Below, piece by piece: positions 1 through 32,292 of a stretch of 64,000 bases of DNA (position 1 is the first letter of the stretch; the number at the start of each line of letters is the position of its first letter). A model generated the notes under the pieces. That model was not told the origin of the DNA. It did no database searches and was given only the letters and a program-made list of their open reading frames with translations. The position numbers and the translations under genes are program-made. Source of the DNA: Adineta ricciae (lineage: Eukaryota > Rotifera > Eurotatoria > Adinetida > Adinetidae); contig CAJNOJ010000175.1 in the NCBI GenBank assembly GCA_905250025.1, forward strand, positions 1 to 64,000, read 5' to 3'.

Positions 1-847
1 TCGGTGTCACTCCCAACTATTGAGAAACAACAAAAGATGTTGAATTGTAAGAATAATTTCGATCATTTACTTTTTCGATATCTTTCCTATCTTTGAACCG
101 ACTGTAGAGCAGAAGAATGACATAGGGAATGGATAAGTAGAACATTCAAGGGAACTGTTAATCAATTTACTGCTCTACATGAACTATTAAAATATGTTTT
201 ATGTGTTATTTAGACACAATGATACTTGGCTTTTATATTTGAGATAATTAAGAAACCTTTTGTGTTGTCAAAGCCTAATTTTGATGTATTTCTAAATATT
301 GTAGTGCACATCAATGATTCAATTTAGAGAATAGTGATGAGGCACAAAATACATGTTTGTGATAACAGTTAGGTTTCTCGTTTGGTTGTGTTGGTAAGAA
401 AAACAGTACAGTTGCTTCAAAATGCCATCGAAATTTATTAACTATGTCTTTCCAATTCTGAGCGTATTTTCTTCATTTTCAACACAAATGCTAAAGCCCT
501 GGAATCAATCATCACTAGTAATGTATGTTTTATATTAACTATAGCAAGCATTTTTGTGTCTTCCTGTTAAAGTTCTACTGAGGAAAATCCGATTGAAACG
601 ATGGGAGCTTGATAGGAAATACCCTCATGTTCAAAGATCATGGGTCCATAATATTTAATATATTCAACTGCTCAAAACTTGTTTCACGATTAATTGACGC
701 TTACATTCCGTCCATCTGTTACAGATTCCGATAGTTCGAGACACAGTTAATGTACACCTACAGAATATGCTGAACAAGATCTTTTTATTTCTGTGAAATG
801 CTTGGGTATATATCTTTTTCTCAGGGATAGGAAGGAACATGTGTTTG
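1..847. other. Left-edge non-coding stretch
   Basis: AT-rich sequence downstream of the minus-strand TMEM256-like gene. A short plus-strand reading frame from the ATG at 422 starts with a hydrophobic segment but closes after about 37 codons, and no convincing second exon follows. I see no supported gene, RNA or repeat here. Confidence 0.5.
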
Positions 848-1435
848 TTAAAGTATAAAAATAGACAACCATCCTGCTAGAAGAAGAAGTCCACCGTATG
901 GGGTAATACGACGGTATCGTGCATCGTTTTGAATAGCATGATAATACATAGGACCACAAAATAAAGTTATACCACTGATCAATAATGAACCAGTAATCAC
1001 CGGGCGACTGACTAATGGTAAACCAAGTAAAGCAACTGAATGAAGCAGGTGATAAGTTTGCGCCAATTGAAATAACTAAATAAATACTATAAAAAAAGAA
1101 TAATGAACCTTTTCCGAACATACGCGACGAAGTTCTTCAGATGTACTGTCCTTCATTGTATGAGCTCCGTACACACCTAAACATATCGCCACAGTACCAG
1201 ACAAGCCAGCGCAGCGAACAAAGTTCTTCGCTGTTGGTGATAGAAGTACGCCTGTTAATGAAACAGGTGTCACGGGAGGCGGTGGTGGTGGTGATGGTGT
1301 TGGTGGAAGTGGTTTGATTCTAAATGAAGTCATTTGGAAATCTCCATGAAAGTAACGAAACAAAAATGCTAACCCAATCGATTTTAGGAGGCCATCAGTC
1401 CATCGGCTGATATCTCGAATAATTGCTACGTCCAT
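848..1435 (-). CDS. TMEM256: TMEM256 (DUF423) family membrane protein
   Basis: Two exons, 1124-1435 and 848-1075, joined over a 48-bp intron whose donor reads GTATGT. The joined protein is 179 residues. The family hallmark GAH sits near residue 90, followed by a charged stretch and the YHLLHSVALLGLP block at the start of exon 2, then further hydrophobic helices to the stop. TMEM256 proteins are small four-helix membrane proteins of unclear function, about 113 residues in vertebrates. This one has an extra N-terminal 60 or so residues with a proline run (about residues 43-55). Met35 is a possible alternative start and would shorten the protein to about 145 residues. Family assignment is firm; the start is uncertain. 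Confidence 0.8.
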
Positions 1436-1589
1436 CGATGTATAGAAACGATCTATAAAACAGTTCGAACATAGTACACAAACATACACTTTCGATCGAT
1501 CGTTTATATTTTCATAAATAGAATCAAATAATGAATGAACAAAAAAAAAACAATACATATCATGTATAGATTCAAACGAGTGTTCATTA

Positions 1590-4500
1590 TTATTGTCGAC
1601 GTCGTGCTGCTTTCCATTGTTCGATGGTTTGTTTCAACTCTGGTTGAGGAATCACGTCTTGCATACGTAATGGATTTCGATTGAATGGATCGATTTGATC
1701 ACTCAGAAGATGCCGAGCAATCGTTGCGCGGTCAACAATTTGGCGCGAACTTGGTAACATCACTGGATCAGTCATAAGAGTGCTCGTAATCGGATCGAGA
1801 TATTCATCCGGTGCGTCGTCATACACAGCATCATCTTCTTTTTGTTGTGCGGCAACATCTTTGATGTGTTGACCAAGTTTGATAAAAGCTTCGACTCGTT
1901 CAGGTGGATGACGAATTTTTTCGAGTACTTCAACAGCTTGAGGAAACAATTGCTCGTTATACGACCTATGAAACGAAACAGATTTGTTTTCGAGTGTATG
2001 TTGATCTTTTTTTCTCTTACATTCCATCCACACAAACAGCTGCACAAAATTCTTCGCGTTCGGCAAAATTTAAGTAAATGTCCGTCACTTTGGCGACTAA
2101 TTTTTGTGGATCGAACTGATATTCATTGAAATCGCGTACTTTTAGATTTCGTCGTTTCGGTCCGACCTATGCAGATCAAATGTTTGAATAATTTCAAATG
2201 AGACGAAAAACAAAACTACGAACTAAATGCTGCAGAAAATAGTTCAACATCGAAGCCAGACGTTCACAAATTGCTGGATTGCAAAAGATTGACTGAATAT
2301 CACGTGTAATCATATCAAGAATAGTTAACTAAAGAGGCGAAATTATCAAAATTGGATACAGGTCGTTTTTTTTCTCTCGACTTACAGTTTTGATTCCCAT
2401 AAAGTTTGTATATCGAGCTATTTGACCTGTATGTCGAAATGTATTCTCGAGATCTTGTCTCTGTTGATCTGGAAGACTTGCCCATTCGCCACGATCCATC
2501 GCTTCTTGATTCTCCCTCAAACGAGCCATGTGCTGCAAACAAGAGACAACAGTTTTCCAAAGCAATTATATTTAACTTTACCGATAATGCTTCGTCTAGT
2601 AGGTAGTTAGCATCGTTCATTAATAAACTTATGAAACGAAGAAAGAGCGGAGCTTCTGCATCATCGATATGTTCCTCAGCATACTCTGCAAGTTTCTGAA
2701 GAAAAGGATCAAGTGAATAATCATCAATAATCAGTTTTGGACGAGAACATACTTTCACTTGTTCACGATGTTTATCGAATTTCCAAAGATATTCGAGGAT
2801 TTCGTACATAGGTCGACGATAATTGAATTTCTGTTCGAATGCAACTGCCTGTCCAGTTAATTCAATTGAAACAAAAACATCGAGAAGAACACGTGGCAAG
2901 TGTTCGATCAATGGATGATTCGTGAAAATTGATTCTGCAAAGGAACTAATCACCAAAGAACAAAAAATCTTCAGTTTCGCTAAATAACAAAACAAACCTG
3001 TTCAATGTTCGACCGCTACCGTGTTGCTTGTTAGGAAGAATAGCTTCGAATGCTTCGGCCAGTGCAGCACGTAAGTGTGGATTGTGTAGACGACTTGCAT
3101 CACCCATAAATACCAAGACCAAAGTAACATATTCATTAACATGTGCAAGTGACTTGAGAAAAACAAGAAATATTATTCAAAACTCAACGATTAACAACTA
3201 AAATGTTTACTTCGAACAATTGCACATTGAATCTGCTTAGAAATGTTAAGTAATTCGTGATGTTCTCCATAATAAATTCCGGAATAAAGCTCAGTTGTCG
3301 ATTGGGCTTTGATAGTAGCGGTAATTCTTTAATCGGACGTAATTCCTCCGCACTTTCCGGATGATCGCATGCTGCAAGATGAACAAGCCATGAACATGTC
3401 GCAGTAAACAACGCATTTGATAGTTCCAATAAGCGAGGTTCATTTAGTACAGTTTTTATGTTGAGAAAAGCCGTCATACCTGAAACAAATACATCAGTCA
3501 AATTATTTTGGTGTTCAAGTTAAAGAGATCTCATTACCTTTTTCCATTGCACTTTCTAATCTTTGTGCACCTTCATGGCTCGCTCCATGTAATCGAATTG
3601 CATTGTTGTACGCATGTTGAACACGTGATAACTCTTCATTGATCTGAGAAAACCAAATATCAACGAGGCTACAGCTGAAACGAAGTTTTTACCTTTAGTA
3701 AAGTCCGATGAAGTCTTTGAACTGAACATGAATAACTTAGATGAGACATGAAGAAGATTTCAGTAATGAAATTAAATGTAATTGGACTAGTTTTTTCCGG
3801 AAGATTATCTTCATCACGAACGATCAATGGTGTATCCTTATGAAGATCTAACGAACAGAAACGAAGTTTAGAAGAAAGTGATATTTGATTGCATACTATA
3901 CCTTTTAAATGTACATTGTCATTTTCACTAATTGCATAGATAGGATTGATCTTTAATAATTTCGGCGAATAAGGTTCACAAAACGGTCCAGCAAGATTTA
4001 ACAGCACAATATTCAAATTTAGTAGAAACCCATCACTAGCGTATACATAAGCAGTTAATGGATTATGTGATGCCCATTCTTTGTTTTTGCCTAAAAGAAA
4101 ACCAAGTTTCAGCTGTAGACTTGCAGGAAACAAAATACCTCGATTCTGAAATAAACAATCGCCAATCCATTTTAATACATCATTACGTGCATCGGCACTT
4201 TTGACAAATGCCCGAAACACTTGCGATAGATATTCTTGATATCTTCTCATTGGCTAAAATGGCTCGTAATGAAATCAACTAGAGAGTATATTGGATTCAA
4301 TCTTACCTCCCACATGGTTCCAGCAGTTAGTTCAACATCACGCTCAGTCATTACTTTCGGTTTTTCAAAGAATAAATAAGGTTTGTCAGGTGTTGATGGT
4401 AGACATGATTTGGAAACAAGAGTACCAACTATTGTATCTTCAAAAGCTCGACCGCTAGTATTTCCTGTTCCGAGCGGATTTCGAAATGGACGGTTCGATG

Positions 4501-5430
4501 ATGTTTTCGGATCAGATAATCGAAACAGAAGCTAAACAGAATCGAATGAATGTAAATCATTGTCAACAAATATCTCACTCACTCGAACAAGTATTCCCCA
4601 TTTTGCTAGATGAGTCAATATTCCAATGTATGAAAACAATTCCGTTGAGTAATAATAGAGCGGTTTAATCGCTATATACATATGACGAAAGACCGATTCA
4701 TAGAGATTTTCCATTTCATCAGTAGACGTCGATGATAATACATCATTGTTAATACAATCTGTATACTCGTGTATCGATGGATTTTCTAAATTGTTTCAAA
4801 TAGAGACAATAAAATAGCTGAGTTCGAGTCTTACCTTGGCCATCAAGTAACAAATCTAACCATTGTTTTGATAAATCTTGCCTATCGTAAAGATCCGGTA
4901 AAGAAATTGCTGTTTTACTATGATTGACAAATAATTGCTTAATCTCATCAAGGACTGATTGAAAACGCTCCTATTTTGTAAACAAAGTTCATATGCATGA
5001 CTATGTTGAAAAGACGAATGCTTACTCGTTGTCGAAGTAATCTTTGGTAACATGCAGATAAGTATATCAAACATCGCGTTTCTACGATTACACTTTCATC
5101 CGTTCGACTTGTTGACTTTTTTGTTGTTGCTGACGATGACGATGACGTTAACAATTGACTGACTGGATCGGTCATTCGTAAACGTTCGAACAGAGCTTGG
5201 TCTACTAGATTTTTGTCCCAGTGTTCGGGTTGTTCATTCGCTAATTCCGCAAGATAAATTAGTGTTGATGAGGGTTGTTCGTTGACTGTACAAAGAAGAA
5301 CATATTCAAGTACATCTTGATAGATATTCGATATTATTGAAGGATTGTCAGCAATTGAAGAAGGTTTTGAAGACGAAGTTGAATATGGGCTCGATGATGA
5401 GTCCGAGAGAATTAGAAAGGGATTCGACAT
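1590..5430 (-). CDS. UBE4A: Ubiquitin conjugation factor E4 (UBE4A/Ufd2 type)
   Basis: Fifteen exons splice in frame to 1,028 residues, close to the roughly 1,060 of animal UBE4A. Exons on the minus strand: 5026-5430, 4835-4970, 4583-4785, 4307-4531, 3902-4253, 3693-3847, 3538-3643, 3211-3479, 2998-3152, 2753-2945, 2582-2695, 2386-2532, 2224-2328, 2021-2166, 1590-1965. The C-terminal U-box (last 75 residues) carries [12 protein letters not shown] and DPFNRNPL, and the Ufd2 core ahead of it contains a recognisable LVGPK block. STLM and IARHLLSDQ in the U-box favour UBE4A over UBE4B. E4 enzymes extend ubiquitin chains on substrates handed over by p97/VCP, in cytosol and nucleus. One donor (exon ending 2224) is the weaker GTTCGT; all others are near consensus. 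Confidence 0.93.
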
Positions 5431-5736
5431 GATGAAAAATCAATAAATAATAATGCTAAGCGGACGAGACGTTGCGATGAATTGTAGGAAAAGGAGAAAA
5501 TAGAGTAAAACAGAACACGTTGTTTCATTTGTCCTTCTCAACTTTCTATCAGGCGACGAACACTCATGCAGTCATTTAGAATATAGATGTCACTGATTTA
5601 TTAGTATATCAATAATTGATTTCATGCGACAAGATACGCTTTATTATATTGTTTGCAAATAGAAATTTATTTTTACGAGACAACAAAGGAAAAAATATTT
5701 ATCATAGATGTGTTGAGCAGACGGGACAGTATAGTG
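5431..5736. other. Spacer between UBE4A start and ATAT1 end
   Basis: About 300 bp of AT-rich DNA holding the UBE4A 5' region and the ATAT1 3' region. On the minus strand an acceptor-like CGCTTAG lies 26 bp upstream of the UBE4A ATG. Nothing else seen. Confidence 0.5.
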
Positions 5737-7020
5737 TCACTGAGGTATACCGAAAATTCTCCAAGTAGATGAGGAAGAGTTCGTTGTTCGTTGTTGAGAT
5801 TGATTCGTAGTGGATTTCGTTAGTGATGTGTGTTGGTTCGAACTAAATAGAAATGAATAGATTGGTTGATTTTTGGAGAGAATACTCTTACTGGTTTTGG
5901 TTAAACACTTGAGAATATGAGCGAGGAGTGTATTTTGCTGATTGAGCTAGTATTTTAGAATAGTTGATTCGACAGAAAGACAACAGAGATATTTACCATT
6001 ATGTTTTATTTCTTGTACAGCTGCATTTTGATTGAAGTGCCGGTCATAGGATGTCGAATAGTATGATACTGGTTCACGTTTATCGAACAAGCGATTTTCA
6101 TCAACGAGTCTTTTCAAACGTTCATTTCTCTCTTGACTTGATGAGTGTTGTCTTTGTGAGGGTACTAACCAAGATGTAGATGATTGAACTGGCTCTTTGA
6201 GAGACGAGCTTTTCTCTTTGGAATTTGCATCGACTGATTGAGTGAAAAATCCTTGATAAACAACAAAGTTGTTAACCAGATGGATAGGTGAGGAGAGATT
6301 GTAATGTTTATGAAGAAATGCTAAACATTTGTTCGATGGACGATCCACCGGTAGTTCGTGTGGAACACATTTTTCAAACTAAATTCAGTCTCAAAGATTC
6401 GTCAACATCAAGAACAAACGTATTGTTGTTCACTTACACTGAGCATAGTGTCGAATAATTTTTTACCATATCCTAATCTCTGTTTGCTTTCATGAACATA
6501 AAAGTCTAGGACACACAATGGCGTTCGTTCGTATACTTGACCATTCGTGTCGTAAATATACAGATGTTTTGGGCCAACTTTTAAAATGCCAACAACTGAA
6601 CCCTTGTTGCTAGAAGATGAGAAACTATGATAACTTTGATTTTTGCAAGAGAGCTATACTTGTTATCGTCGGATTTCTTTATGATATATAAATGATGATC
6701 GGACATGCGTAATTTACGTGCTGTGGTTATCGGACCGTATAATCCCTGTGCCTATGTGGTTAAAATAACGAAAAAACTGTGTTGAAAATTAGTTTCAACT
6801 GGTTTTACTTTAAATGAAGCGTCACCCATTGCATCAATAATCGACGTAAGTTTTTCCAGAGCACTGCAAAACAATTCGATTGCGATGAAAGAAGTGAGGA
6901 CAACAATTGACGTACTCACAGTATTCGAATAGATTCACCTGGATTGAGAACTCGATAATCTCCATTGATTATTGTCAATTCAAGAGGTAAAACTTGATTT
7001 ATATCAAATGGAAATTCCAT
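5737..7020 (-). CDS. ATAT1: Alpha-tubulin N-acetyltransferase
   Basis: Seven exons splice to 320 residues: 6920-7020, 6809-6863, 6660-6751, 6438-6609, 5997-6378, 5842-5946 split by an intron at 5893-5945 (exons 5946-5997 side and 5892 side), and the last exon to the stop at 5737. More exactly the 3' exons are 5997-6378, 5892-5946 and 5737-5842. The MEC-17/ATAT1 GNAT fold is clear: GSVVGILKVG, LCVLDFYVHES, the acetyl-CoA loop QRLGYGKKLF, then VDRPSNKCLAFL and the FVVYQGFF block. ATAT1 acetylates Lys40 of alpha-tubulin inside the microtubule lumen and marks stable microtubules such as cilia. The tail after about residue 210 is low-complexity Ser/Gln-rich and ends in a short STWRIFG motif. The assignment is firm; the last two small exons are inferred from splice sites and frame. 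Confidence 0.92.
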
Positions 7021-8902
7021 CGTATTTCTTTACGAAACTTTACTACATTCTCATACTCTTGTAGCCATTACACTTGTCATTCTTCCGAACGACATCCTCT
7101 GTTATTGTTTCTTTCCAATGAAATTAAAGACTATTACAACGAAATCAGCACTCTATGTCGTGTTTCATTTGGTCTTATTGTATTGTACTCGGGGAAAATA
7201 TAAATAGTTCAGATATAATTTGTGGTTGAATCATTTTCCTTCAGTTTTGAATTTTGGCATCAACTGCATAGCAGTTGTCATGTTGTTAGGTATATCATTG
7301 ATTAGGTTGAAAAATAACTGATTGCATTTGAAAATTCATCATTGTACAGTATGTAGTGAATCTTATGAAATTTTACATAGATTGTGTGTCTAAATGTGAT
7401 ATCATTTTAGGGAATCACTGAATATACATGATCGACTACAATTTAAGATACTTTTAAAGCTCGTGGAAATGTCAATATTTTGTACACAGGTCTCATGTTG
7501 TTGAATGTTTGTTTCTGATAGCTTACATTAAAAACAAGATAGAGATTCATGATCCTTTTGATGTTTAAAAAGGAGAAATGCATTAAAACACGTGTTTCGA
7601 ATAATGTTTAAAATTTATAGGACTTTTATGAAGAGTTTTTGCATCAGTACTATGATGGAGAATGCAGAAGCTTTCCATTGCATTAAATTAACGAACAACT
7701 TGAAGTGATCGAGCTGTTACTATGAAACTAGGAATCGTTATCCATTAAATCTACTTACTAATAATTCTATTGAAGGACGACGAGGATACGCTTCACATTA
7801 TTGAAATTGTATATAAAGTGGATAAATTATAAAAATCATGAGATTTTTCCAGTGCATTTTGAAGTATTAGAATTATACTCATTCAGTAAACTATCTATGT
7901 AATAATTCTTTGAATGACATCCAAGACAAAGAGATTATTATTCGTAACATATCTTCGGATGTTTAACCTACCTTTCATTAATCTTTTCACTGTGAATACC
8001 TTTTTATAACAAATATTTATCGGATATATCAGTAAATTACACACGGTTTTTTATTCTATACAAACAAAATGTTACAATCAATAAGCGAATTTGATTCGTG
8101 GCTGTTGCCGTTGTATATTGGTTCTCGTTGCATTGGAGATACCGTTATTATTAAGTAGGTATATGACTTGTATTGTCTAAAAACAAAAAGACAGACGTCG
8201 AAATGAAGAAAGACCGAGTCATTCACTATGTGACTTCGTATTGAATCTACAGAAGATCGTGTCCCATTATCTGTGATCTAATTATTTTGAAGACTTAAAG
8301 TAGTAAGTATCTGTGGAAACATTTGTAAAACCTGTGTATTGTCCATTGATTGACAATATCTCATTGCTCCCGAAAGTTAAGTATACCCATGAGATGACAA
8401 AATAATTCTAATAGTGTTAAACCTTAATTCAAAAGGGTATTCCAGACACCGTACAAGTGTAACTATTCTATGTGAATTTTTATTAGACTTGTCATCATCT
8501 CAAATATGTTCTTGATCTGTTTATCTTTTTACAAAAAAAGATCGATCGTTTCTCTAACAGTTTTTATATAAAAAAGTTACCCTATGAATTGATCTTAACT
8601 CATCATATCCAACAGGAATGTGTTATTTCATTCAAACTTTGAATATTAAAAATAGAACAAGAATATGATGACTGGTGTAATCTTTCTCTTCGTGCTCTCA
8701 GATTTTATTAACTATTTAAATACAATATTCACTAATACGCTTCCCTTTTTACATCAAAATAAGTTTTGTTATTTAACTCTACTATAGAGTATTTACAGTC
8801 TGTTCTGCCTTGTGTGGTACTTTTTTTTTAAAACATTTTACTATTTTTAGACACAAAGAAATGATCGGATAAGGATCTCTTTTGTTGTATCTGAAAAGTT
8901 AG
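7021..8902. other. Non-coding AT-rich region
   Basis: Nearly 1.9 kb with no reading frame or splice pattern that I can support on either strand. It separates the ATAT1 start from the end of the TRIM-LRR gene. No clear inverted repeats or satellite. It could hold regulatory DNA or the 3' untranslated end of the TRIM-LRR transcript. Confidence 0.45.
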
Positions 8903-11900
8903 TTAAACAAAGTTGCTTACTCTGTTCTGCCCCAATGCGTTGCTCAACTGTTGTGCTCCGTCATTTCCAATCTGATTATTAGAAAGATACAACTCCTTGA
9001 GTCCCTGGATAAAAATACAGAAATGAATAAAAATCAAAGTAAAAGTGCTTTTCTCGAAAATTAACTTGTCGTGCGTTATTATATCAGAACTCATCGTAAA
9101 TAACACATTTTTGAAGTGAAGTAAAACGACGAAAGCTCAATCTTCACAATAGATACTTGTTTATTCAAACAAAATAAATCCTCTATATTTCTGATACACG
9201 ATATTCTGTTTCTTAAGGGAATATATTCTACAATTCGTAACGTTCATCAACACACTGGACACTCATCGACCGAATAGATAACTTACTTGATTCTGAGTCA
9301 GCATAGCAGCGAGGTGTCGTGCGCCCTCATCCTTGATTTGATTTTCATGTAGATATAGATGTGTTAATGTCTATACATACAATTGAAAAATATAACCAAA
9401 GATGTTCACTGTCATTGTTAAAGGACCCTGTCGGATAAGGTGACCTATCCAAAATCTAAATACCAAGCACAGCATCTTGTAGAGCACTCCAAGGCGCATC
9501 GAATGGTGTATGATAAGTTGAGTTTTCGTGTAGTTAAGGGAAAGTTATGATCAATTTACTGCTGGAAAACTGGGGTCAAATTGAACATAAGTAGTGAAGC
9601 AGTATAGTTCTAGAAAAACACCTTGAAATAGATTTCTTATATACAGTTGTGTAGAGCTTCTCCTAGGCTACAAGTTGATATAGTCCACATATCTAACCAT
9701 AATAAATTTCAAAAGAAAACAGGGGCCCTTCAGACATTTTTTCATATAAGGCGATGATGATCAGCTCATTATAATTGATATTATTAATCTCAACAGAACT
9801 ACCCACGGCTCATAATTTCTGCAAAACTGCGCGTTAGTCAGGGCTAGAAAATGTACTATTTGGATGTGTTCCAGGATATGCGCATTATGGCTAGAATTAA
9901 GTTGCACTGGAGCGCTTCAACCGATTTTTGCACAAATTCTCAGGTTTTAGCGATTTATGTATCCATTTTCATTACTAAAACTCAATCCAAATTAAAAACA
10001 AGTATGATATTCGTGTTCAGCTCGAAAAACTGTACTATAAAAGTCAAGTTTCAGTCAATTACTTTCTCCTTGGAAAAACTACCTGAGGGGGACCTCAATC
10101 CAGTTCTTGGCGATATTTTCGATGTACTCCCCCTCAGGTAGGGTGTCNNNNNNNNNNNNTTCTGTGAAATACAAAATTCATCCATATATCAAAACAGAAA
10201 AGCAAAAACTCGCATACGCACTAATGAAATATTCTCAACTAATCCTTCACGATCTTCTATTTATTATTCGCTAATAAGACTAATTATAACAAGAATAAAT
10301 CACAAATAATCATTGTTTATCGATGAAAAACATTCTTCCAGTGATACGAGATAATTTCTCTTCTTGATGATTGAATTAATCAATGATTTATATTTATCAT
10401 TATGTAGATCTGCATCAAACAAAGTAGAGCCCTTTATGAAGAGAATCGAAGAAATATCGTATTTCTTTTACACAAAACTGATACTCTGATCAATCTTCGA
10501 CAAAATTTATTGAAAAATCTCAGCGTATGTTTTTAGGATTAATTCTCAATACATCGTACAAACTGTCGATATGATCTCAATTTCAAGCAACATCCGTCGA
10601 TTAGTTTGATAGACTATGACAGATAGTTCTTGCGTAAACAGAAGAATACTTCAAATTATGGAGAGCAATTTACCTGGTTTCTTATCAATGCTTCGGCAAG
10701 ATGCTGTGCTCCAGTATCTTTAATTTGGTTTACTTCCAAACCAAGGTGAGTTAACGTCTACAATGAAACGGTAGTATGGAGAGGGACGCATAAATACTGA
10801 ATGAAAATGATTAATGTTATTTATTTTCGAGAAAGTTGTTCTATTTCGTACATACGAGATAAGAACACTCTTTTGATTGGTTTGATAATACTTTCAAGAG
10901 TCATGAATATCAAGTTTAATGAACTTGGTGGAGAAGTAAAAACAAAAGGAGACATAAAGGAAAGTGTAAAATTGGAGGAAAAAGACAATATAATCATTTG
11001 AACAAGTAAAGAATCACTTGTTTTGTTACAATAAGAAATAATTTCACAAATTCACAATTAATCTCCTGATAAATTACTTAATTATCTTATAAACAATGTG
11101 TTTTACATGAAATGGTTTAATTAAATTTTCGTTATCGATATAAATACGATACTATGATGAAATGAAGATGAAAATTCAAATTAAAAACTATCTTATTCGT
11201 TCTCAGCACTTTTCTAATACATTACGTATCGATATAAATAATTTTATGTTAGTTGTTGTACTGAAAAGTATAAAGAAACAATCGATGAAACAAAAAGGAA
11301 ATTGAAAATTAAACATTTGTTTAATCGATTATTTCTGAAGCGATGTTGTGACTTTACATTAATATACGCAAAGTCTCAATCTGAGAAAGATTTGTATTTT
11401 ATTTAAACTTATTAGATAATCTTTTTCTAAATTGAAAAATGTTCTTCACTTTCAATTGTCTTATTCGATACAGTTCAAGATATATTTATAATTCAAAAAC
11501 TGACTATCAAAGATAATTACCTGATTAGTTCGAAGAACATTAGCTAAGTATTGCGCACCTGTGTCAGTAATTCCATTTTTAGAAAGTCCCAATTGAGTAA
11601 GTATCTATTCGTCAGAAAGATATAAGAAATTAAGTCGAAATTTAGNTTCTAAATTGAAAAATGTTCTTCACTTTCAATTGTCTTATTCGATACAGTTCAA
11701 GATATATTTATAATTCAAAAACTGACTATCAAAGATAATTACCTGATTAGTTCGAAGAACATTAGCTAAGTATTGCGCACCTGTGTCAGTAATTCCATTT
11801 TTAGAAAGTCCCAATTGAGTAAGTATCTATTCGTCAGAAAGATATAAGAAATTAAGTCGAAATTTAGATAAAAAGTATTTAATTTATAAATGAACTAGTT

Positions 11901-14900
11901 AGTCTGATTATTTAACAATAAGATTTAAAATGTTATGAAAAAAGACGAGAATTTATTGAAGTATTTAGTAATAAGATACTTCTCATTTCGACATTAGATA
12001 TGAATTATCGATCATTGTATGTAAATTTAATGATGTTTTATTAATGAAATGAGATTTTGTAAAGAATTGAATTCTATTTAACTAAGGAAAATATTTATTC
12101 GATAAAAATTTCCTATTTTGATAATATCTCACACAATGACACACGAATACGTGTTCATAAAATACTATTCAAATGTAAAACTATGTCGAATGCGATATTT
12201 TCTTCGAACACTCAAAATTGATTCACTTAGATGTCATAAAAAGATCTCAAGGTTTGTATTTTTACAAATTTCAACAGTTTTTCAAGAAATAAATCCAAAA
12301 TAAAACTCACTGTGTTGTGTTCTAGTGATCGGGCAAGATGTTGGACTCCATCATCTCCGATTCTATTCGAGTTAAGGACCAAAATAGTCAGAGTCTACAC
12401 GAAAAGATATCGATTGAGTGTGTTAAAGTCGTGTTTTTCATTCGATTCATTATTAACTGTCAATAAGTGTGAACAATATAAACTTCTCATTTCAAATATT
12501 CTTATCTCATCAAAAATATCCGTGAAAAAACAATCGCAAATAAGTCCGATGGACAAAACTGAATTAAATCATAGAATAGAAATGATTACAGAAAGTGTGT
12601 AGAAGAACAAAAGAAATATCTTCAATAAAATTCATATCTCTCACTACGAAACTTGTTCGCTTATACATATATCGATCAAAAGAGTTAATTTCAATGGAAA
12701 AACTTCTTACTCGATTATTCTCTAACATATTTGCGAAGTGTTGTGCTCCAACATCTGTGATTGCATTAGCACCGAGATAAACTTCTTTAAGAGTCTACGG
12801 ATAGAAAACGAAGAAATGAATAAGAATTCAAATCGAATTTATAATCTATTCGATTATTAATAACAGTGAACTAATTCTTTGTTTAACTACGAAAAAATAT
12901 TCTCTACTCGAATAAGAATTATTTCATCNTACTCGATTATTCTCTAACATATTTGCGAAGTGTTGTGCTCCAACATCTGTGATTGCATTAGCACCGAGAT
13001 AAACTTCTTTAAGAGTCTACGGATAGAAAACGAAGAAATGAATAAGAATTCAAATCGAATTTATAATCTATTCGATTATTAATAACAGTGAACTAATTCT
13101 TTGTTTAACTACGAAAAAATATTCTCTACTCGAATAAGAATTATTTCATCAGAATTTTTGTAATGATTCGAATCTTGTCGGAATTTATCAAATAAAGTCA
13201 CAAAACGATCAATATGAATACGAACATTTACTTTTTAATATTATTCTTCATAGTGAAAACAAAACACTTTGAAAATGGTACGTATAACCTAATACCTCTG
13301 AAATTCATCATTGAGACAATGTACTTTGTTATTTATCATTTGATGTTTATCAAAAGTTAACAAATTTAATATTTATAATCAACATCGAGATGATAAATGA
13401 AATTTGAAATCAAAATCAGCAACTGATATTTTAATTCTTCTGAGTTAAATATATTCATTCGATTGCTCATCTAATACAAGAAAATGATTTGAAACAACAT
13501 AAATCATTCTAATGAATTCACAAGTAGATCTACTATGAAAATAACATTAATCATAAATATTATTTCTGAAAAAGAAAGCGAAATAGAAGATTTTGTAAAA
13601 GTCGGTTGTGTATGTAAAGGGCAAGATGAAGACGTTCGATATATTTGTTTTCAAACTGAGAAAAAGTGTTTCAACTCGTTTCTCATATATTTAACCAATG
13701 TGAGAAATTCTTTTAGGAAAATGACGCGAGGAGTTTTTGAATGAGTTAAATAGAGATTTTAAGGTAATAATGAAAGTGATTTTTTACGAATAACTACTTG
13801 AATTCGGCACATTTCTACTGTTTCATAACATAAAATTGAGAAAAATCGATATTCAGTCACTGGGAATTCAATCTTCAGCTCTCAGTCATTGACACTCAAA
13901 TGTGGTTGTAAAGTATTCAAAAGTTGATAGAAAGAACGCGTGTTATAGAATATAGTTCTCCACATTCAAACAATTACTGATAAATTCAACTCACTTGGTT
14001 AGTTGTTAACGCATTTGCGATGTGCTGAGCTCCTCCATCTCCGATCTGATTATCATATAACCAAAGCTGCTGCAGTGTCTGTAATACAAACACCAGACAT
14101 GTTTAGAAATAGTAATGATCATACAGTAAATATTTTCTCAAGAAGAAATTAACTTCATTTTATGGATTTTCCTCAAATATCGTTTCAAATTTCAATGTAT
14201 CGTATTTATCAAAGTTTCCGAGTTAATATTAAATGATATCTATTCTCTGCTTTTGTCATTGTTTCTTCTATTTTATCATTAACGAAATGAGATCATCTCT
14301 TCAAATGTTTTATTCATATAAACCTAAAGTTTAGTAATCTGATCGGAAACTTTCTCATTCTGAATATCTTTGAACTGCTTTTATGATTTACAAGATATCA
14401 GCACTAATTAATCTAATTTCTGAAACTAACTTACTTGATTTGTTCGTAACATTTCGGCTAATTTTTCTGCTCCATTATCTCCGATTTGATTCCGACCCAA
14501 CTCGATGTAAGTCAAACTCTATATTGAATGAAATTCAAAAGTCATATGTTATCTATGGTACGCGTTTGAATAAATCAATTAAACAAGATATCGAAAGCTC
14601 TATCACTATCTCACTGAAATCTGAACTGACTTAGTTAACTGAATCTGAATTCAAAACACAATTACTATACTCAAAATATAAACATAAAAATAACTCAAAA
14701 GAAATATGACAGAATGGAGTAAATGTTTATGTCATGATTGATGTCACATCTATGTTCATCGTTACTGTTAATGAAAATAAATACTCACTCTATTAACCGT
14801 TAAAGCATTTGCTAGATGCTGAGCTCCATTTTCACCAATCTGATTATTTTCAAGAACCAAAACATTAAGTGTCTATATTTATCGATTTAGATGAGATTAT

Positions 14901-17900
14901 ATTAGAGAGTATATGAACAGTCTGAACTATGGATCACTCTATTCACTATTCAAGTCTTATTTCTTCGATAAGTATATCTCTTAATCTAGTAATTCTCACA
15001 CTTATCTTCTCAAAATTACTCTATGTTGTAATCGAACTCAACTTTCCATTTCTAACAGTTTCATAAAGCTTTTTAAAATGTAATCGACATCTTTATTTGA
15101 AGAAAATACAAAACAAATAAACTCACTTGATTTCTCTCTAACGCGTCGGCTAAATGTCTTGCTCCGATGTCTCCAATCTGATTATTATATAAATTTAACT
15201 CCTTCAATACCTGCAGAAAAAAGAAGAAGATGATAACATTGAGTAATTGTCTGTGAAATATTCAATGTAATCGATTGACACTATGCTTGACATAAAATTT
15301 AAAGAACGCAACTCTTTCACGGTTAGTCATAATTCGAATAATTATTTTAAAAACTCACTCACGCTGTGGATATAATAAAGTAATCTATTTTCTCGATGAT
15401 TCTATTCTTATTTCGGAAATCAACTCACTGTATTAACTTTCAATGCTTCTGCCAGATGTCCAGCTCCGATAGGTCCGATTTGGTTGGTGTAAATATCCAA
15501 GCGAGTTAATGTCTACAGGCATTTAAAGTTTACATATCTTAAATTAAACAACTGAAACTAACTAATGTACTTCGAAGAAATCGAGAATTTGCTGCTCAAT
15601 AGAAATAATCTGTATTTCAGTGGAGTACTCAAAAATTCCAGAGATAGTATAAATATAGACGAACACACTTGTAACTAGAAAATTCTTGAACTTTACACTG
15701 AAATATCCATCAAATAGTTTCACATTCATTTGTCAAGTGAAATAGATTAATTTTGGCGGAAGAAAACTCACTCGATTAGTTTCCAATGCTTTACCAATAT
15801 GTTGTGCCCCGACATCTTTAATTTGATTCTGATGTAGATATAGCTCCTTTAGTATCTAGAGAGAAAGATAATGACAAACTTAAATAGTTCACTATGCTCT
15901 TTATTATTACTCTCAAAAACGAATAAACGAAATCGATCGATAATGTTGATAGATGTGTCAACGAAGATGTTTTATTTACTTCAAACTCGAACTCATCTCA
16001 ATCACAAAACTGCAAAGTTGTTCAACGTGTGTCATAGAAAATTTCACATTGGACACTTCTTGTTGCACTTTCTATGATGATTCGAATCGATCGAGAAAAG
16101 TTTTGACATGGAAGGAGCAGCTATTTGGGATAGTTACGGTGCTAATCTGTAAAAACATCTGCTTACTCTATTTGATTGTAAAGCATCGGCTAGGTATTGT
16201 GCTCCAATATGTCCGATTTGATTGTCATTCAAAAATAATTTAGTGACCACCTATATCGAAAAAAAATTCTACGAATAATGTAAACTGACAAATTTTGTTT
16301 TTAATGACAATATCGAGTGTGACAGTCAACTGATAAACGATGATCAATGGTAATCAACTTATGATTCGCATTTTCGTTATAAAATCTTCTCGGATAAATG
16401 GATTGATCTCTAACTTAACATAATTCTATTTTCGGAAAACGTGTTTTAATAGTAGTTGGCATGAATCTTTACAATAGGTCCTGTTGTCATACTCAAAATT
16501 CATAAATTAAAATCAAGAATATCTCACCGTATTCGTTTTCAACGCCTCAGCTACAATTTCCATATCTTGATCAGTTAGTCTGGAAGAATATAAATCTAAT
16601 CTGGCGTTATTTCCGTTGTTAGCAATCTTTTGTGACAGTTGTGGATTTTCATATCTTGGTACAGGTACATTGTTAACATTTCGAATCTGAGTTTCCATTC
16701 CCTATAATTATAAAGGAATTACTATTTATTCGAAGACAAGAAACCGAAAGATTATCACATATACGATGTAAATGGGTACCCTCTGCTCATTCCTTTATCT
16801 TGAGCAAAGGGGTGAGGCTTTCAGATGGATAAATCAGAGAATCTCAATGTCGAAACTTACTTTATTAGTTTTAAGTCCATCCGCAACACATTGTGCTACT
16901 TCATTCTTGATATTATTCTGATACAAAGTCAATGTCTTTAGTGTCTACAATTAAAAATGAATAGATATTCAACTATGTGAATCATGAACTGCCAAAGCTT
17001 ACTTTGTTCGTTCGTAGTGCATCAGCCAGGTGTTCCAATCCTTCAGTTCCGATTTGGTTGTTATGCAATTCCAGATTAGTGAGTGTCTACATCATTGAGA
17101 ACACATGATTATAGATGTTTACGAGATAACTTAATATTAAATTAATGACTAAAGCAACATTCTTACTTGATTTGTTCGGAGAACATCAGCTAAATACTGT
17201 GCTCCCAGATCACTAATTTGATTGGCATACAATTTCAATGTTGTAAGGGTCTACATTCCAAGAAAAAATTCAGAATGATGCTTTCGAGAGCGAAATCTTC
17301 GATTATACTCTTCTGATTTCTAATTCCTTGGCCACGAGTTCCATTTCTAGATCAGTGAGCTGCGATGAGTTTAGGTCGAGCGTTGCACTGTTCGCGCTAT
17401 TAGTGATCTTTTGCTCAACTACTTGATGCCTGTGTCTTGATACCGGTTCCAGTTTCATATTTTCAATTTGATTTCGTAGATTAGTCAAATCTACGACACC
17501 TGCGATATGATTTTTGATCCGCGATAGTGGTTTCAATTCTAACAGCCTCGCGTCTGTCCTTCTTATAAAATCTTGAAACGGTTGTCTCGCATCCAAAAGT
17601 CTTTGTGGACGTTTATCTTTGGAAACAACAGCAAAATTTAACACTTGTTCAATTAAATTCTGTTGTTCGCCTTGAAGCGAACGTTTATGTTCTTCAATCC
17701 TTCTTTTATCGCTCGTCTCTACTTGATGAATTTCACCCAGCAAAGTCTCTTCTCGTCGATCGATCAGGTGGCGAAGATTTTGCATGGTTTCACGGACCTG
17801 AGTTTCATTGAATTCCCTTTCCTTTTCCACTTCGATAATCATTTTATCCGCTCGATCCGACCGATAGTTCAAAGACGCCTGAATTCCTTCCAAATTACTT

Positions 17901-18583
17901 TCACACTAAAACACATTGACATAAATTACAGTCGCAGTTCTTTCGATATAGTACTCACCTGCTCTTCTATTGTCTTCACATACGCAGTAATTTCAACCGG
18001 CGAATGCTCCCTATGTTGTGTTTGTTGACACTCACTACAAATCTCTCTCGCACATTGTTCGCACCAAAATTGTATGGAATGATCACCATGACCTTGACAT
18101 TGAGGTACTTCACGAGGTCTATCTCCAACGTGAAGTTTCCTATGATTGCGGTATTGATCCACTCCATGAATGGTATCCCAACAGTTAGAGCAGAAGCAAT
18201 GCTTGCAATCACTATCACACCAATATTCAGCTTCATTGGTAGTACATCCATGGCACGGAACTGAAGCTGGCTCGGGATGATCTAGAAGGAAAGAATGAGG
18301 CAAGACAATGATGGAAATGAAAATTATTAAATGTCTCACTAAACAGTTGAATAAGATCCCGGACCGTTTGATTTGGAGGTAATGCATTAATATTATTACC
18401 TTCGACCTTTGTTCCATCCTTTTTCGGACATTCCAACAGACCGTTGTTTTTCGAGGTCATTTGTTGAATGCATTCGAAACAGAACGTATGCTTGCAGGGC
18501 AACATACGTGGTTCATCAAAATGTCTCAAACATACGGGACAGGTGATGACATTCTCAACCAAAGCAGTAAAACTAGTCGTCAT
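8903..18583 (-). CDS. RING/B-box/coiled-coil protein with 16 exon-encoded LRRs
   Basis: Start ATG at 18583. RING exon 18340-18583 (CPVC...CKHTFCFEC...CPKKDG), B-box exon 17959-18281 with two zinc modules (CHGC..., CQGHGDHSIQFWCEQC), coiled-coil exon 17309-17905. LRR exons of exactly 84 bp, all phase 0, follow: 17167-17250, 17003-17086, 16861-16944, then a 174-bp linker/LRR exon 16528-16701, then 16167-16250, 15772-15855, 15429-15512, 15127-15210, 14789-14872, 14435-14518, 13995-14078, 12933-13016, 12311-12394, 11743-11826, 10674-10757, 9287-9370, 8921-9004 with stop at 8903. Collapsing the two assembly duplicates gives about 899 residues and 16 LRRs of the 28-residue ribonuclease-inhibitor type (L..L.L..N.IGD.GA..LA.AL..N). 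The module order suggests a TRIM-type E3 ligase with an LRR recognition surface; the target is unknown. The last RING zinc ligand appears to be Asp rather than Cys. The very end is uncertain, because a donor-like GTAAGC follows the last LRR. Confidence 0.8.
9425..10147. mobile_element. Possible insertion in an LRR-gene intron, cut by an assembly gap
   Basis: This stretch of an intron of the TRIM-LRR gene is richer in GC and differs in texture from its AT-rich surroundings. Near its right edge it has a perfect 14-bp inverted repeat (10079-10092 and 10128-10141, arms CTACCTGAGGGGGA / TCCCCCTCAGGTAG, 35-bp loop), and it runs into the N gap at 10148. That fits the end of a DNA transposon or MITE, but the left end has no matching arm and no target duplication can be checked. 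Treat as a candidate only. Confidence 0.35.
10148..10159. other. Assembly gap (12 N)
   Basis: Twelve N bases inside an intron of the TRIM-LRR gene, directly after the inverted repeat described at 10079-10141. True gap length is unknown, so one or more LRR exons could be missing here. Confidence 0.95.
11425..11645. repeat. 221-bp direct duplication, copy 1
   Basis: Identical as read to 11647-11867 and separated from it by one N at 11646. Each copy carries a whole LRR exon (11521-11604 here, 11743-11826 in the other). Identity through both intron and exon plus the single N points to a scaffolding artefact in which overlapping contig ends were not merged. Confidence 0.85.
11647..11867. repeat. 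221-bp direct duplication, copy 2
   Basis: Second copy of 11425-11645. Only one of the two LRR exons should be counted as real unless raw reads span both copies. Confidence 0.85.
12708..12928. repeat. 221-bp direct duplication, copy 1
   Basis: Identical as read to 12930-13150, split by one N at 12929. Carries LRR exon 12711-12794. The length is again exactly 221 bp, the same as the duplication at 11.4-11.9 kb, which is hard to explain biologically and fits an assembler overlap length. Confidence 0.85.
12930..13150. repeat. 221-bp direct duplication, copy 2
   Basis: Second copy of 12708-12928, carrying LRR exon 12933-13016. Probably an unmerged contig overlap. Confidence 0.85.
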
Positions 18584-19493
18584 ACTGATCAATAGAAAAT
18601 AATCGTAGTAAGCGAATTGAAAATCTAAAAAACAGAAACGACATTGTGAAAACGATGAGGAGAAGACGCCGACATGAATTTTTGTAATTTGTATGCGACA
18701 AGTGAAAAAGAGCAACTTTTTATTTGAGTTCTGAAGTCAAACAAAGTTTTGCTTCGTCTCTTGAAGAGAATGAAAAGGAGAAAGTGTAAATATTTTTACG
18801 AACAAAACCACATCGAAGTTGTTTTTTGTAAAATAAATATTGACTGAGAACATCAAACTTTCGTCTGTCTATTGTGTTTCTTCAAGATAAAATAAATTTC
18901 AACGCGCAATAAGAAAAAGCGGTGAGAATGTCAGCAAGATTGTAAGTATAGACGTAAATTAGTCTCGAATCTCCGAAAGTATTTGTTAGCGATCATGTGA
19001 TCATCGCTACTCCTTTCTCTCTCTCTCTCTAGTTCTGTATGCTTGAAAGAATGTTATTGTAGATAACATTTTTTCTGCTTCTCTTTTTGTTCTGAGCGAG
19101 TATTCTCGTCGAGTATTTCTCATTGATAAGAAAGGTATATTTACTGAAATTTTACCTAGAATAGTCTTTGCTTGTCTCCATACGTTTACTTAAGAAAGAT
19201 TTCATGAGTGATTCATGATCTCCTTCTGGCATATTTTCATGGGAATAAACCCGTCCGTCTCATTTAAAAGACTCTCTTATCGTTGATAGGTGTTGTTTTT
19301 ATTTTTAAAATTAAACGTTCTCCGCACCGTTTTGCAAGAAAAGTAACGCACAAACTTTATGTTTTATCTTGTGAAATCTTCCAAGTAGAATGTGTGTTTG
19401 AATAAGATAAACACGAACGAGAGTTTTTACGAATTTCGGCTCTGTCTCAATTTCAGAACTACATTGTTAAATTTATTCAGATTTTCTATAACA
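18584..19493. other. Divergent intergenic region with CT microsatellite
   Basis: About 0.9 kb between the start of the minus-strand TRIM-LRR gene and the start of the plus-strand ubiquitin-like/NHL gene, so it probably holds both promoters. A (CT)n tract lies at about 19016-19032. No gene seen. Confidence 0.5.
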
Positions 19494-20617
19494 ATGAGAA
19501 TAAATGTTCGTACACTCGAAGGAGAATCAGTCACGTTAGATGTCCAGCCCAATGATACAATCCGAAATGTGAAGAAAAAAATACAAAGCGCAAAACGTAT
19601 TCGAGCACAATGTCAAAGACTGGTGTTTGGAGAAGTACAGTTGAAAAATAGCAAATTATTATCGAATTATGGAATTCAAGATGACGCCACGATTTCCCTT
19701 ATTCTACGTAAGTGTCTAAAAGAAGATTAGTTGATCTGGAACGATTTTGAGTATCCATAGGAGTTGTTCAAGACGATAAAACTATTGCTGGTGGATATGG
19801 TGAGGGTGATGCTGCTGATCAACTCTCCTATCCTTATGGTCTTGTTATTGACGACGACCAAACAATGATTATTGCAGATTGGGGAAACCATCGAATTGTT
19901 CAATGGAAAATAGACGAAAGAAACGGTAAAGTCATTGCCGGTGGACATGGAGAAGGAAGCGAACCAAATCAATTGAGTTATCCAACCGATGTTGTTATTG
20001 ATCGTCAAAACAATAATATTATTATTTGCGATCGAGGAAATCGACGAGTGGTCCAATGGTCACGTGCAGAAGGCACTACTCAGGGTCAAGTACTAATTGA
20101 TCACATTGACTGCTGGGGACTAGCAATCGATCATGAACGAAATCTTTATGTCTCGGATATCGAAAAACATGATGTTAAACGATATGTCATCGGAAATCCC
20201 AATGGAACTGTGGTTGCTGGTGGCAATGGACGAGGAATTGGGCTTAATCAACTCAGTCAACCATCATACCTGTTCGTTACCCCACAACAGACTCTCTATA
20301 TATCAGACACATGGAACCATCGCGTGATGAAATGGGAGAGAGATGCCAGGGAAGGCACTATCTTCGGTCGTGGCTTTTCACGAGGGATAGCGATCGATGC
20401 GACTGGTAATATCTATGTTGCAGACTATGGAAATCATCAACTCATACGTATGCCTGTAGGAGCGAACGAAAGCACGATTATTGCAATCGGAAATAAAGAG
20501 AAGGAAGAAGAAGAAAATCAATTATACTACCCATGGGGTTTAACTTTAGATCAACAAGGCCGCATTTATGTTACCGATCATTTAAACCATCGTATACAAC
20601 GTTTTCCCACTACATAA
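19494..20617 (+). CDS. Ubiquitin-like domain fused to six-bladed NHL propeller
   Basis: Exon 1 (19494-19707) encodes a ubiquitin fold that starts MRINVRTLEGESVTLDV and runs to about residue 71 without a terminal Gly-Gly. A 53-bp intron (GTAAGT...CATAG) joins it in frame to exon 2 (19761-20617). Total 356 residues. Exon 2 gives six NHL-type repeats, each with a GL.ID....IYVAD..NHRIV pattern, enough for one closed beta-propeller. Without Gly-Gly the ubiquitin-like part cannot be conjugated and probably serves as an interaction domain, for example for the proteasome or ubiquitin receptors. NHL propellers bind protein or RNA. I do not recognise a named orthologue. Its neighbours are the TRIM-LRR gene (divergent) and the ART/TPR gene (same strand, 208 bp on). 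Confidence 0.85.
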
Positions 20618-30724: not shown

Positions 30725-32292
30725 TTAGGTACCGTTCCGAGATGCTGTACTTGCTTCACTTCCTGCAGATATCCTTTCATCACTTTCATTCAACGAAGAC
30801 AGTCGACGTTCACTTCCTGCAGATATCCTTTCATCACTTTCATTCAACGAAGACAGTCGACGTTCACTTCCTTCGACATCAACATTCACTTTTAGATGAA
30901 TAACACTCGATCGTTGTTTCACATCAACAATCTCTACCAGCGAATCGATCTGCTTATACCCATCACCATCCATTCGAACAGTTGACCATGCTAACAGGTT
31001 GAAACGAGCATCATTCCGATGACCATGTGGATGAGGAAGAGCTAAATCATACACAACTAAACAAAAATGATCAACTAACATTCTCTACTTACCAGCATAC
31101 ACAGTAACAGCATCGACAGGTCGTACGACACACACACGTCGTTGGATCATTCTTAGCGATAGATCATCATCTTCACCACCCCAACCCCAGTACAAGTTCG
31201 AAAATCCATTCACCTGTCGGTACATGTCTGGTGTTAACAACAACACTCCACCAATCAAAAACTCGTAGTAACGTGAATAGCCACGCTTGCTACCGATTTG
31301 ACGAACACGTACAGTTGTGTGCTTTGGATGAGTAGGCTCACAGACATAGTAGTTGCCATCATTCTCTGGAATCAAGTCCACATCATGTAAAATGAGACAG
31401 GTGATGTTCAACGATTTCTGATTTTCGATGTAGCGAACACCAGCATTGAGTAAACGACCCTTGTTGAATCGATCACTTCGTGGATGTATCTAGACGAGAA
31501 ACGCAAAAGTGAAAAAAAAACACACAGGTTATTCATTCGGAATTGACTCAATGCATACAAATACGACTACTACCATGAAATCTATCAAGTGCAGGTATTT
31601 CTTGTCAACTAATGGTAAACATATACTTTGCAATCACACCAACAAATACAAACCTGTTCGGCGAGAAGAACTGTGTATGTGAGAAGCTGTCGCCGAGCGA
31701 ATGCGTGGATGTTGAAGATGAATGCCTTGGCATTGAAGTCGCGTCCTTGCAATGGAATCAGTATGGCAGTTCGTTGAGCTGAGATCACTCCGACAGGATG
31801 CCACAGTCCGTTTTTGTATTCATAGGGGATGTTCTCAAATGTCACATTCGTAGCGAATGGTGTTTGCAGAGGTTTTGTTTTGTTGTTAGTGTTCATAGGA
31901 AGAGTCTTTTGATAGAAATTGTCGATATCATCGAAAGTGATATTAGAATATGGAGTGACTAATACAAACGACCCTCGAAGGTGTTGAGAATGTCGAGGAT
32001 GGAACTTCGAAAGATCCTTTTTCGGTTCAGCGAGTTTATATGATCGACATGAGATCGATGTTCGCATTGCAAACTCGTGATATGGAACCAACAAATAGTA
32101 TGGTGGAATGGTTGATAACTGAGCTGAAGCGTTGCTGTTCGATTGATCACAATCGGGTGATGAATGATAGATGAATGAGATCATACTTTCTTGTCTCATG
32201 TGAAACGCGATTGTGAAGGTGACGAAGCATATCAGGGCGATGGAAATAGCCAAAGATGATCGAGGAGCTCGGCGCCAATGGATTTTACGCAT
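30725..32292 (-). CDS. Beta-1,4-galactosyltransferase family protein
   Basis: Three exons (31654-32292, 31093-31489, 30725-31056) splice to 455 residues. Residues 10-30 form a signal-anchor helix, giving the type II Golgi topology of the family. The catalytic domain shows GRDFNAKAF and the LLAEQ edge, RFNKGRLLNAG, the metal-binding LHDVDLIPENDGNYY, and the acceptor/donor motif WGWGGEDDDL. These enzymes transfer galactose (or GalNAc) from the UDP sugar to terminal GlcNAc on glycoproteins or glycolipids in a Mn2+-dependent reaction. A C-terminal tail of about 55 residues beyond the catalytic domain is Ser/Glu/Arg-rich and contains two perfect 18-residue repeats encoded by a 54-bp tandem duplication. 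Which B4GALT subtype it represents is not clear. Confidence 0.88.
30757..30864. repeat. 54-bp tandem repeat, two copies, in coding DNA
   Basis: Two adjacent identical 54-bp units (30757-30810 and 30811-30864) inside the last exon of the galactosyltransferase gene, keeping frame and adding 18 residues (SERRLSSLNESDERISAG). A few further bases of a third unit follow. Recent slippage or unequal exchange is likely. Confidence 0.9.

Follow-up and report, generated by a model that had tools for sequence, protein, structure and literature searches.

The window analysed here is a stretch of 64,000 nucleotides (nt), positions 1 to 64,000 of contig CAJNOJ010000175.1, and our subject is a gene on its minus strand, at 18583-8903, which is predicted to encode a TRIM-type protein with a RING finger, B-boxes and a coiled coil, followed by a long ladder of leucine-rich repeats (LRRs) of the ribonuclease inhibitor type (RI type). 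The copy in the window is called C175; other loci of the same gene lie on C203 (minus strand) and C238 (plus strand). The parts of the gene, in the direction of reading, and two stretches that overlap it are the following.

18340..18583, minus strand: exon 1, start codon and RING finger (Pfam PF13445 41.1 bits, PF00097 33.9 bits)
17959..18281, minus strand: exon 2, two B-boxes, the first one weak (PF00643 at residues 139-175)
17309..17905, minus strand: exon 3, coiled coil, then a cap-like degenerate LRR (SATLDLNSSQLTDLEMELVAKEL); donor GTATAA kept in three copies; match to TRIM3 chain 8amr_A
17167..17250, minus strand: LRR1, 84-nt exon
17003..17086, minus strand: LRR2, 84-nt exon
16861..16944, minus strand: LRR3, 84-nt exon
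16528..16701, minus strand: 174-nt linker exon between LRR3 and LRR4, a second cap-like LRR with a conserved in-frame ATG three bases in
16167..16250, minus strand: LRR4, 84-nt exon
15772..15855, minus strand: LRR5, 84-nt exon, the first inside the exchanged tract
15429..15512, minus strand: LRR6, 84-nt exon
15127..15210, minus strand: LRR7, 84-nt exon
14789..14872, minus strand: LRR8, 84-nt exon, hypervariable concave codons
14435..14518, minus strand: LRR9, 84-nt exon, hypervariable concave codons
13995..14078, minus strand: LRR10, 84-nt exon
12933..13016, minus strand: LRR11, probable assembly duplicate (221-bp exact duplication around N at 12929)
12711..12794, minus strand: LRR11, 84-nt exon, one copy of the probable assembly duplication
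12311..12394, minus strand: LRR12, 84-nt exon
11743..11826, minus strand: LRR13, probable assembly duplicate (221-bp exact duplication around N at 11646)
11521..11604, minus strand: LRR13, 84-nt exon, one copy of the probable assembly duplication
10674..10757, minus strand: LRR14, 84-nt exon
9423..10159, no strand: non-homologous stretch and N gap at the place of LRR15 in C203 and C238, from the alignment to both
9287..9370, minus strand: LRR16, 84-nt exon
8903..9004, minus strand: LRR17, reading on to the stop and taken as the last exon (tail VSNFV*)
7894..15991, no strand: tract shared with C238 (95-97% identity, as against 82-83% over 18652-16032)

Exons 1 to 3, spliced in frame, give a stop-free product of 388 amino acids (aa). 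Its RING finger scores 41.1 bits with PF13445 against a Pfam cut-off of 25.2, and also exceeds the cut-off with PF15227, PF00097, PF13923 and PF13639; the second B-box (type 2), which adjoins the coiled coil, reaches 30.4 bits with PF00643 (cut-off 24.1, residues 139-175). At the position of the first B-box (type 1) no Pfam B-box match above the cut-off was obtained; residues 90-131 are rich in Cys and His and give a sub-threshold match to the zinc domain PF16366 (26.6 of 29.8 bits). The coiled coil is assigned by a sequence match and not by a dedicated coiled-coil predictor: TRIM3 chain 8amr_A aligns to residues 136-272 and reaches into this region. By sequence, TRIM3 and TRIM2 are the nearest relatives of the front end in the PDB. 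Exon 1 is 94% identical in C203 and 87% in C238. An earlier note on this DNA had described a RING, two B-boxes and a coiled coil; the RING, the second B-box and the coiled coil stand, and the first B-box is no more than suggested. The same note had reported LRRs in place of a PRY/SPRY or NHL domain and the lack of a NACHT domain, and the Pfam scan bears out both: the C-terminal part matched LRR families, with one sub-threshold unrelated match and no PRY/SPRY or NHL, and no NACHT match was seen in the spliced parts of the encoded protein.

The LRR exons are exactly 84 nt long and in phase 0, as the earlier note had stated, and are preceded by AG and followed by GT. Under strict criteria, 29 exons of this kind were detected across the entire window (both strands, all ladders pooled); among 20 simulated windows of the same third-order Markov composition, 19 held none and one held a single exon. 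The joined ladder of 506 aa matches the Pfam family LRR_6 with 208.7 bits, and is closest by sequence to ribonuclease inhibitor (1.5e-52), to structure 5irm (3.9e-32; listed as uncharacterized, and which we take to be NOD2) and to NLRPs. The note's count of 16 repeats holds for the distinct exons of the window, where 18 LRR exons are present in the gene stretch; C203 and C238 have 17 each, in one-to-one order. The surplus in the window lies in exact 221-bp duplications around single Ns (11425-11867 and 12708-13150), which are probably contig-end overlaps placed twice and would inflate the exon count. We read the extra LRR11 and LRR13 as assembly artefacts because each exon is single in C203 and C238. 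LRR15 is not in the window, where about 740 bp beside an N run (10148-10159) are not homologous to C203 or C238; when window 9423-10147 was considered as a possible repeat or transposon, its matches on other contigs were all short and weak, the best of them 72% over ~240 bp.

The ladder is also less uniform than had been described. The 174-nt linker interrupts it between LRR3 and LRR4. This linker repeats the end of exon 3 in degenerate form, at 45% identity to residues 328-385 of the query, and thereby divides the ladder into two segments with a cap each, LRR1-3 and LRR4-17. The proposed boundary rule (starts ACx CTx, ends CAA AAY xxx) has to be loosened, as starts include GTG GTC, GTA TTG and GGA CTC and ends are xxx AAY xxx. 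The tail of LRR17 is open in all three copies, reading VSNFV* in C175, VSYFV* in C203 and VSDFV* in C238 (the latter two translated by eye), and an AATAAA follows ~200 bp downstream of the LRR17 end in each.

The ladder was then compared between copies codon by codon. In LRRs the aaLXLaa residues form the concave strand surface, according to excerpts of PMC2747839. The concave set was defined as repeat positions 3, 4, 6, 8 and 9 (the x of LxxLxLxx) and the other 23 positions as scaffold; non-synonymous (N) and synonymous (S) changes were counted by the Nei-Gojobori method, and intron divergence in the tract served as the neutral rate (C175-C238 3.67%, C175-C203 9.15%, C203-C238 8.26%). In LRR5-17 the N:S counts at concave codons were 19:1 (C175-C238), 27:5 (C175-C203) and 35:5 (C203-C238); at the other codons they were 6.5:9.5, 14:25 and 16:27, respectively. 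Set against the intron expectation, concave changes numbered 19 vs 5.3 for C175-C238 (Poisson P 3.5e-6), 27 vs 13.3 for C175-C203 (P 6.4e-4) and 35 vs 12.9 for C203-C238 (P 2.8e-7). Out of 98280 possible sets of five of the 28 positions, 53 reach the observed count for C175-C238 and five do so for each of C175-C203 and C203-C238. The ratio of concave dN to LRR dS, bootstrapped over repeats, was 3.02 (1.14-8.88) for C175-C238 and 1.89 (1.14-3.21) for C203-C238. Over the whole ladder, LRR1-17, concave N:S and the dN/dS ratio (omega) were 26:2 and 3.31 (C175-C238), 27:7 and 0.90 (C175-C203), and 42:6 and 1.85 (C203-C238).

The LRR5-17 scaffold is constrained, with an omega of 0.16-0.20, and so are exons 1-3 (0.36-0.39); purifying selection acts on the RING-to-coiled-coil part and on the LRR scaffold. 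A dN/dS comparison of LRR surface residues across paralogues had been proposed in the earlier note, and its outcome is positive: the concave amino-acid rate exceeds the intron rate in LRR5-17 in three comparisons, which are not independent of one another. A concave face that changes faster than introns suggests a fast-evolving recognition receptor, and the substitution excess lends indirect support to the idea of a recognition role.

Two other ladders served as controls. The gene at window 30386-28383 (minus strand) has a B-box and a coiled coil without a RING, and eight LRR exons with short introns, the last of them degenerate and ending in a stop; it has a counterpart on C203. Between C175 and C203 its concave N:S is 4:1 and that of its other codons 22:17, and the concave rate is higher in the TRIM-LRR gene than in this control (Fisher P 7e-4). 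The second control was a pair of C73 loci (C73:174501-179700 and C73:185001-192933), which lie ~11 kb apart on one contig and whose 12 LRR exons each are ~95% identical; here concave N:S is 4:3 and that of the other codons 18.5:22.5. As no concave excess was found in either control ladder, the excess looks like a property of the TRIM-LRR gene and not of LRR exons in general.

The relationship between the three copies changes along the gene. In sliding comparisons (300-bp steps), C175 and C203 are ~87-96% identical outside the gap stretch, C203 being aligned only to ~8.7 kb. Between exon 1 and LRR4, C238 shares ~69-88% with both of them; past window ~16.0 kb in the direction of reading, with the gap stretch once more excepted, its identity is 92-99% to C175 and 87-96% to C203. 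A one-changepoint fit (window 10300-18590, 7450 sites) puts the switch at 15991, with twice the log-likelihood difference (2dlnL) at 531.8; the share of sites where C238 departs from C175 and C203 alike is 15.6% before this point (to LRR4) and 1.6% after it. No window sequence below 7894 is matched by C238, and window 1-9000 continues on C203 at 93%. Since the similarity to C238 runs from 15991 to 7894, the exchanged tract comprises LRR5-17 and ~1 kb past the stop, which is the same part that carries the concave excess. As assembled, C238 is thus shown by the alignments to be a mosaic, with the RING half of one lineage and the LRR5-17 half of another. The C238 ladder would most simply be a transfer from the C175 lineage, because in the tract introns the divergence of C203 from C238 (8.26%) is near that of C175 from C203 (9.15%).

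In TRIM proteins the coiled coil dimerises the protein, the C-terminal domain picks the target and the RING recruits the E2. The explanation that we favour, with a probability of somewhat less than 0.6, is that the gene encodes a TRIM-type E3 whose RI/NOD-type horseshoe of 17 LRRs serves for recognition and is retuned by point changes and by ladder exchange. The C-terminal horseshoe would be the substrate-binding domain of a ubiquitin ligase; its concave face would bind ever-changing targets, most likely pathogen or rival molecules, and the RING/coiled-coil part would ubiquitinate or cluster the targets so bound. Specificity may be renewed by point changes in the concave-face codons, and also by gene conversion that would move a whole ladder onto another RING/B-box platform. 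The selection pattern, read from sequence, points to a target side in continual change; patterns of this kind are usually caused by a pathogen target, but other conflicts (with selfish elements, for example) would look alike. We put forward much more tentatively that this is a new E3-linked receptor, in which the LRR ladder would be antigen-facing, the concave face subject to strong diversifying selection and the ladder cassette (LRR5 to the stop, ~8 kb) converted between RING/B-box platforms.

Several points weigh against the proposal of a retuned TRIM-type receptor. The ratio of concave dN to LRR dS for C175-C203 is 1.48 (0.78-2.33), which alone is not decisive, the whole-ladder concave omega of this pair is 0.90, and LRR1-4 are without excess between them (0 N, 2 S). 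The three pairwise comparisons share branches and are to be taken as one body of evidence, drawn from three copies in one genome; the Poisson tests assume independent changes, yet some codons differ at two or three bases. Clustering of the changes was noticed by eye before they were counted, and the LRR4/LRR5 split was set by the identity breakpoint; the position set is the standard one. The controls hold only 5 and 7 concave changes and are accordingly of low power. The C238 mosaic could be an assembly chimera. When exon 3 is left unspliced, it continues with a V and then a TAA stop, the position being identical in each copy, and the linker exon has its conserved in-frame ATG; a shorter, LRR-less form or an internal promoter is therefore possible. 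Finally, the ligase activity of the RING and any immune role are putative.

Some of these points could be taken to mean that there are two transcription units, one for a RING/B-box/coiled-coil protein that stops at 17303 or after LRR3, and another for an LRR-only protein that starts from the ATG at 16698. The non-consensus exon 3 donor GTATAA with its in-frame TAA and the in-frame ATG of the linker exon are found in all three copies, and the stop met on reading through LRR3 has an identical position in C175 and C203; in C238, however, it comes 13 codons later (by eye). The donor sequence is itself conserved, as are the acceptor and phase of the linker in the three copies; non-GTRAGT donors also occur in the C73 ladder, and the cap-like LRR that closes exon 3 would be hard to explain with no ladder behind it. 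Diverged paralogues, moreover, retain the RING-B-box-coiled-coil-LRR order: one lies on C559 and has ten LRR exons of 84 nt, of which one uses a GC donor, and others lie on C73, where the locus at 185001-192933 has RING, B-boxes, coiled coil and 12 LRR exons and the one at 174501-179700 is seen only from the coiled coil onward, with 12 LRR exons. Since order, reading phase and splice sites are conserved in all three copies, one of which (C238) is 15.6% divergent from the other two in its front half, the single gene assumed in the earlier note is likelier than two, and we regard a division into two units as unlikely. To much the same degree we doubt that C238 is an assembly chimera of two unphased loci, which would account for the mosaic without any ladder exchange. 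The assembly does have local errors in the form of the N-flanked duplications, and a front-end search of the genome found no fourth copy as a separate locus, so that a collapsed one is conceivable; yet there is no N at the breakpoint (~C238:92030), the C238 ladder differs from that of C175 by 3.7% in introns and is therefore not C175 itself, and the match of C238 to the window ends below 7894.

Relaxed constraint could also produce variable concave codons, if these positions were merely tolerant, the gene drifting or the copies becoming pseudogenes: the concave x positions are naturally variable in LRRs, the window copy may lack LRR15, and the C175-C203 omega of 0.90 would fit. Relaxation should not, however, lift the amino-acid rate above the intron rate, and all 50 LRR exons are open, 16 in C175 and 17 in each of C203 and C238, the LRR5-17 scaffold is held at an omega of 0.16-0.20, and two comparable ladders show no excess, though they offer few changes; this explanation appears improbable, by a shade more so than the two just described. 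Least probable of all, in our view, is that the surface is retuned by repeat exons that are gained or lost through unequal exchange, or skipped in splicing. The earlier note had proposed gain and loss of repeats as the route, and phase-0 LRR exons would indeed keep the frame when lost or skipped; family members that have diverged also vary in ladder length. In the three close copies, however, exon gain or loss was rejected as a visible change: LRR number and one-to-one order are equal in C203 and C238 (17 vs 17), the apparent extra exons of the window are probably the 221-bp assembly duplicates, and the window is without only the LRR that falls beside the N gap.

All components of the proposed TRIM-LRR receptor are known singly: TRIM front ends, RI-type LRRs, one LRR per exon, a selected TRIM recognition domain, and gene conversion that differs between parts of a gene. 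In finTRIMs, as excerpts of PMC2657112 describe them, diversifying selection acts on the C-terminal B30.2 recognition surface, with a few selected sites also near the RING. Like finTRIMs and TRIM5alpha, the present gene has a RING-B-box-coiled-coil front end and a selected C-terminal recognition surface; unlike them, it has an RI-type LRR ladder spread over many exons instead of B30.2, and a front end that is nearest to TRIM3/TRIM2 in the PDB. With TRIM-NHL proteins (TRIM2, TRIM3, TRIM32) it shares the RING, B-box and coiled coil, which in sequence come nearest to those of TRIM3/TRIM2, but they carry an NHL propeller where LRRs stand here; a ubiquitin-like/NHL stretch adjoins the gene on the other strand. 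For the zebrafish NLR-B30.2 genes, the passages of PMC4852459 at hand report that gene conversion acts differently on the effector and recognition parts, that the latter are positively selected, and that LRRs and other small domains each lie on single exons. To that extent these genes resemble ours in having a selected recognition module, differing conversion of the two parts and single-exon LRRs, whereas in them a NACHT domain is present and selection is ascribed to B30.2 and not to the LRRs; in our gene selection falls on the LRRs, and NACHT was not found. One LRR per exon is likewise reported for NOD genes in excerpts of PMC2747839; the 28-residue repeats are of the kind found in NOD-type NLRs and ribonuclease inhibitor, but the front end is of the E3 type, with no NACHT match in the encoded protein. 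Parts of PMC3846280 describe expanded LRR and NHL families in the bdelloid Adineta vaga, and the passages shown from PMC9334734 list 22 B-box and RING genes in the Aplysia immunome, LRRs on them being unmentioned in those passages. A RING-B-box-LRR protein occurs in no title or abstract opening among the matches listed, and protein databases may well contain one. The coupling of a TRIM front end to an LRR ladder that carries the selection, which would be the new element, did not appear among those literature matches.

Invertebrates, which lack antibodies, need variable receptors, and how a changing recognition surface is obtained from few gene copies is a question to which the present gene brings its own internal controls, with a ligase front end, a recognition ladder, selection concentrated at the residues that would face the ligand, and a ladder that was apparently passed between paralogues. 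If the proposed receptor is real, it would couple NLR-like recognition directly to ubiquitination; in a bdelloid, if that is what the animal is, such recognition would be renewed without ordinary sex. A telomere-type repeat, counted as a possible sign of the taxon, gave 7 forward and 21 reverse matches, no more than its reversed control (8 and 22), and is uninformative on this point. If confirmed, TRIM-LRR would join TRIM5alpha, finTRIMs and fish NLR-B30.2 as a system whose recognition part evolves, and moves, independently of the effector part.

The genome holds a larger family around this gene. The 388-aa front end gave 51 matches in a genome search, and a B-box family search gave 44. Thirty overlapping front-end loci were examined with ~1.5 kb of flank, a scope outside which more distant downstream ladders would fall; within it, strict-type LRR exons were found at 12 of the 30, all on C175, C203, C238, C559 and C73. 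NACHT domains are present elsewhere in the genome, with 40 matches at E <= 0.001.

The neighbourhood of the gene contains further frames of related composition. Window 19494-20617, on the plus strand, holds a divergent neighbour in which an NHL propeller (PF01436 121.5 bits) comes after a ubiquitin-like domain (PF00240 70.7 bits), perhaps in one protein; short collinear matches to this stretch also lie beside the C238 copy. Four 84-nt LRR exons also follow a frame that encodes an F-box (PF12937 28.1 bits, PF00646 26.6 bits), at window 46828-47899 on the minus strand; if this putative join is correct, it is the third ligase-type front end beside such a ladder in the window. Seven pieces of C59 are 67-79% similar to window 860-7020. 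This contig was considered as the home of a fourth copy and rejected, as C59:142001-147000 is without an LRR ladder. At C59:142491-144750 a flank like window 860-7020 is followed within ~1 kb by frames that resemble (by eye) those of window 30725-32310, which are presumably galactosyltransferase-like; the ~23.7-kb block between them in the window (7020-30725, with the TRIM-LRR, ubiquitin-like/NHL and B-box/LRR genes) seems to be absent there.

RI-type LRRs as such are very common in the genome, with at least 150 matches in one search (150 of 1804 candidates being scored) and 182 in another. On contigs C9, C7, C322, C52 and C152 many LRR matches are spaced 141 bp apart, the sum of an 84-nt exon and 57 bp; one such locus has as many as 16 LRR exons of the strict type within 3 kb, and at these loci exon plus intron may be the unit of amplification.

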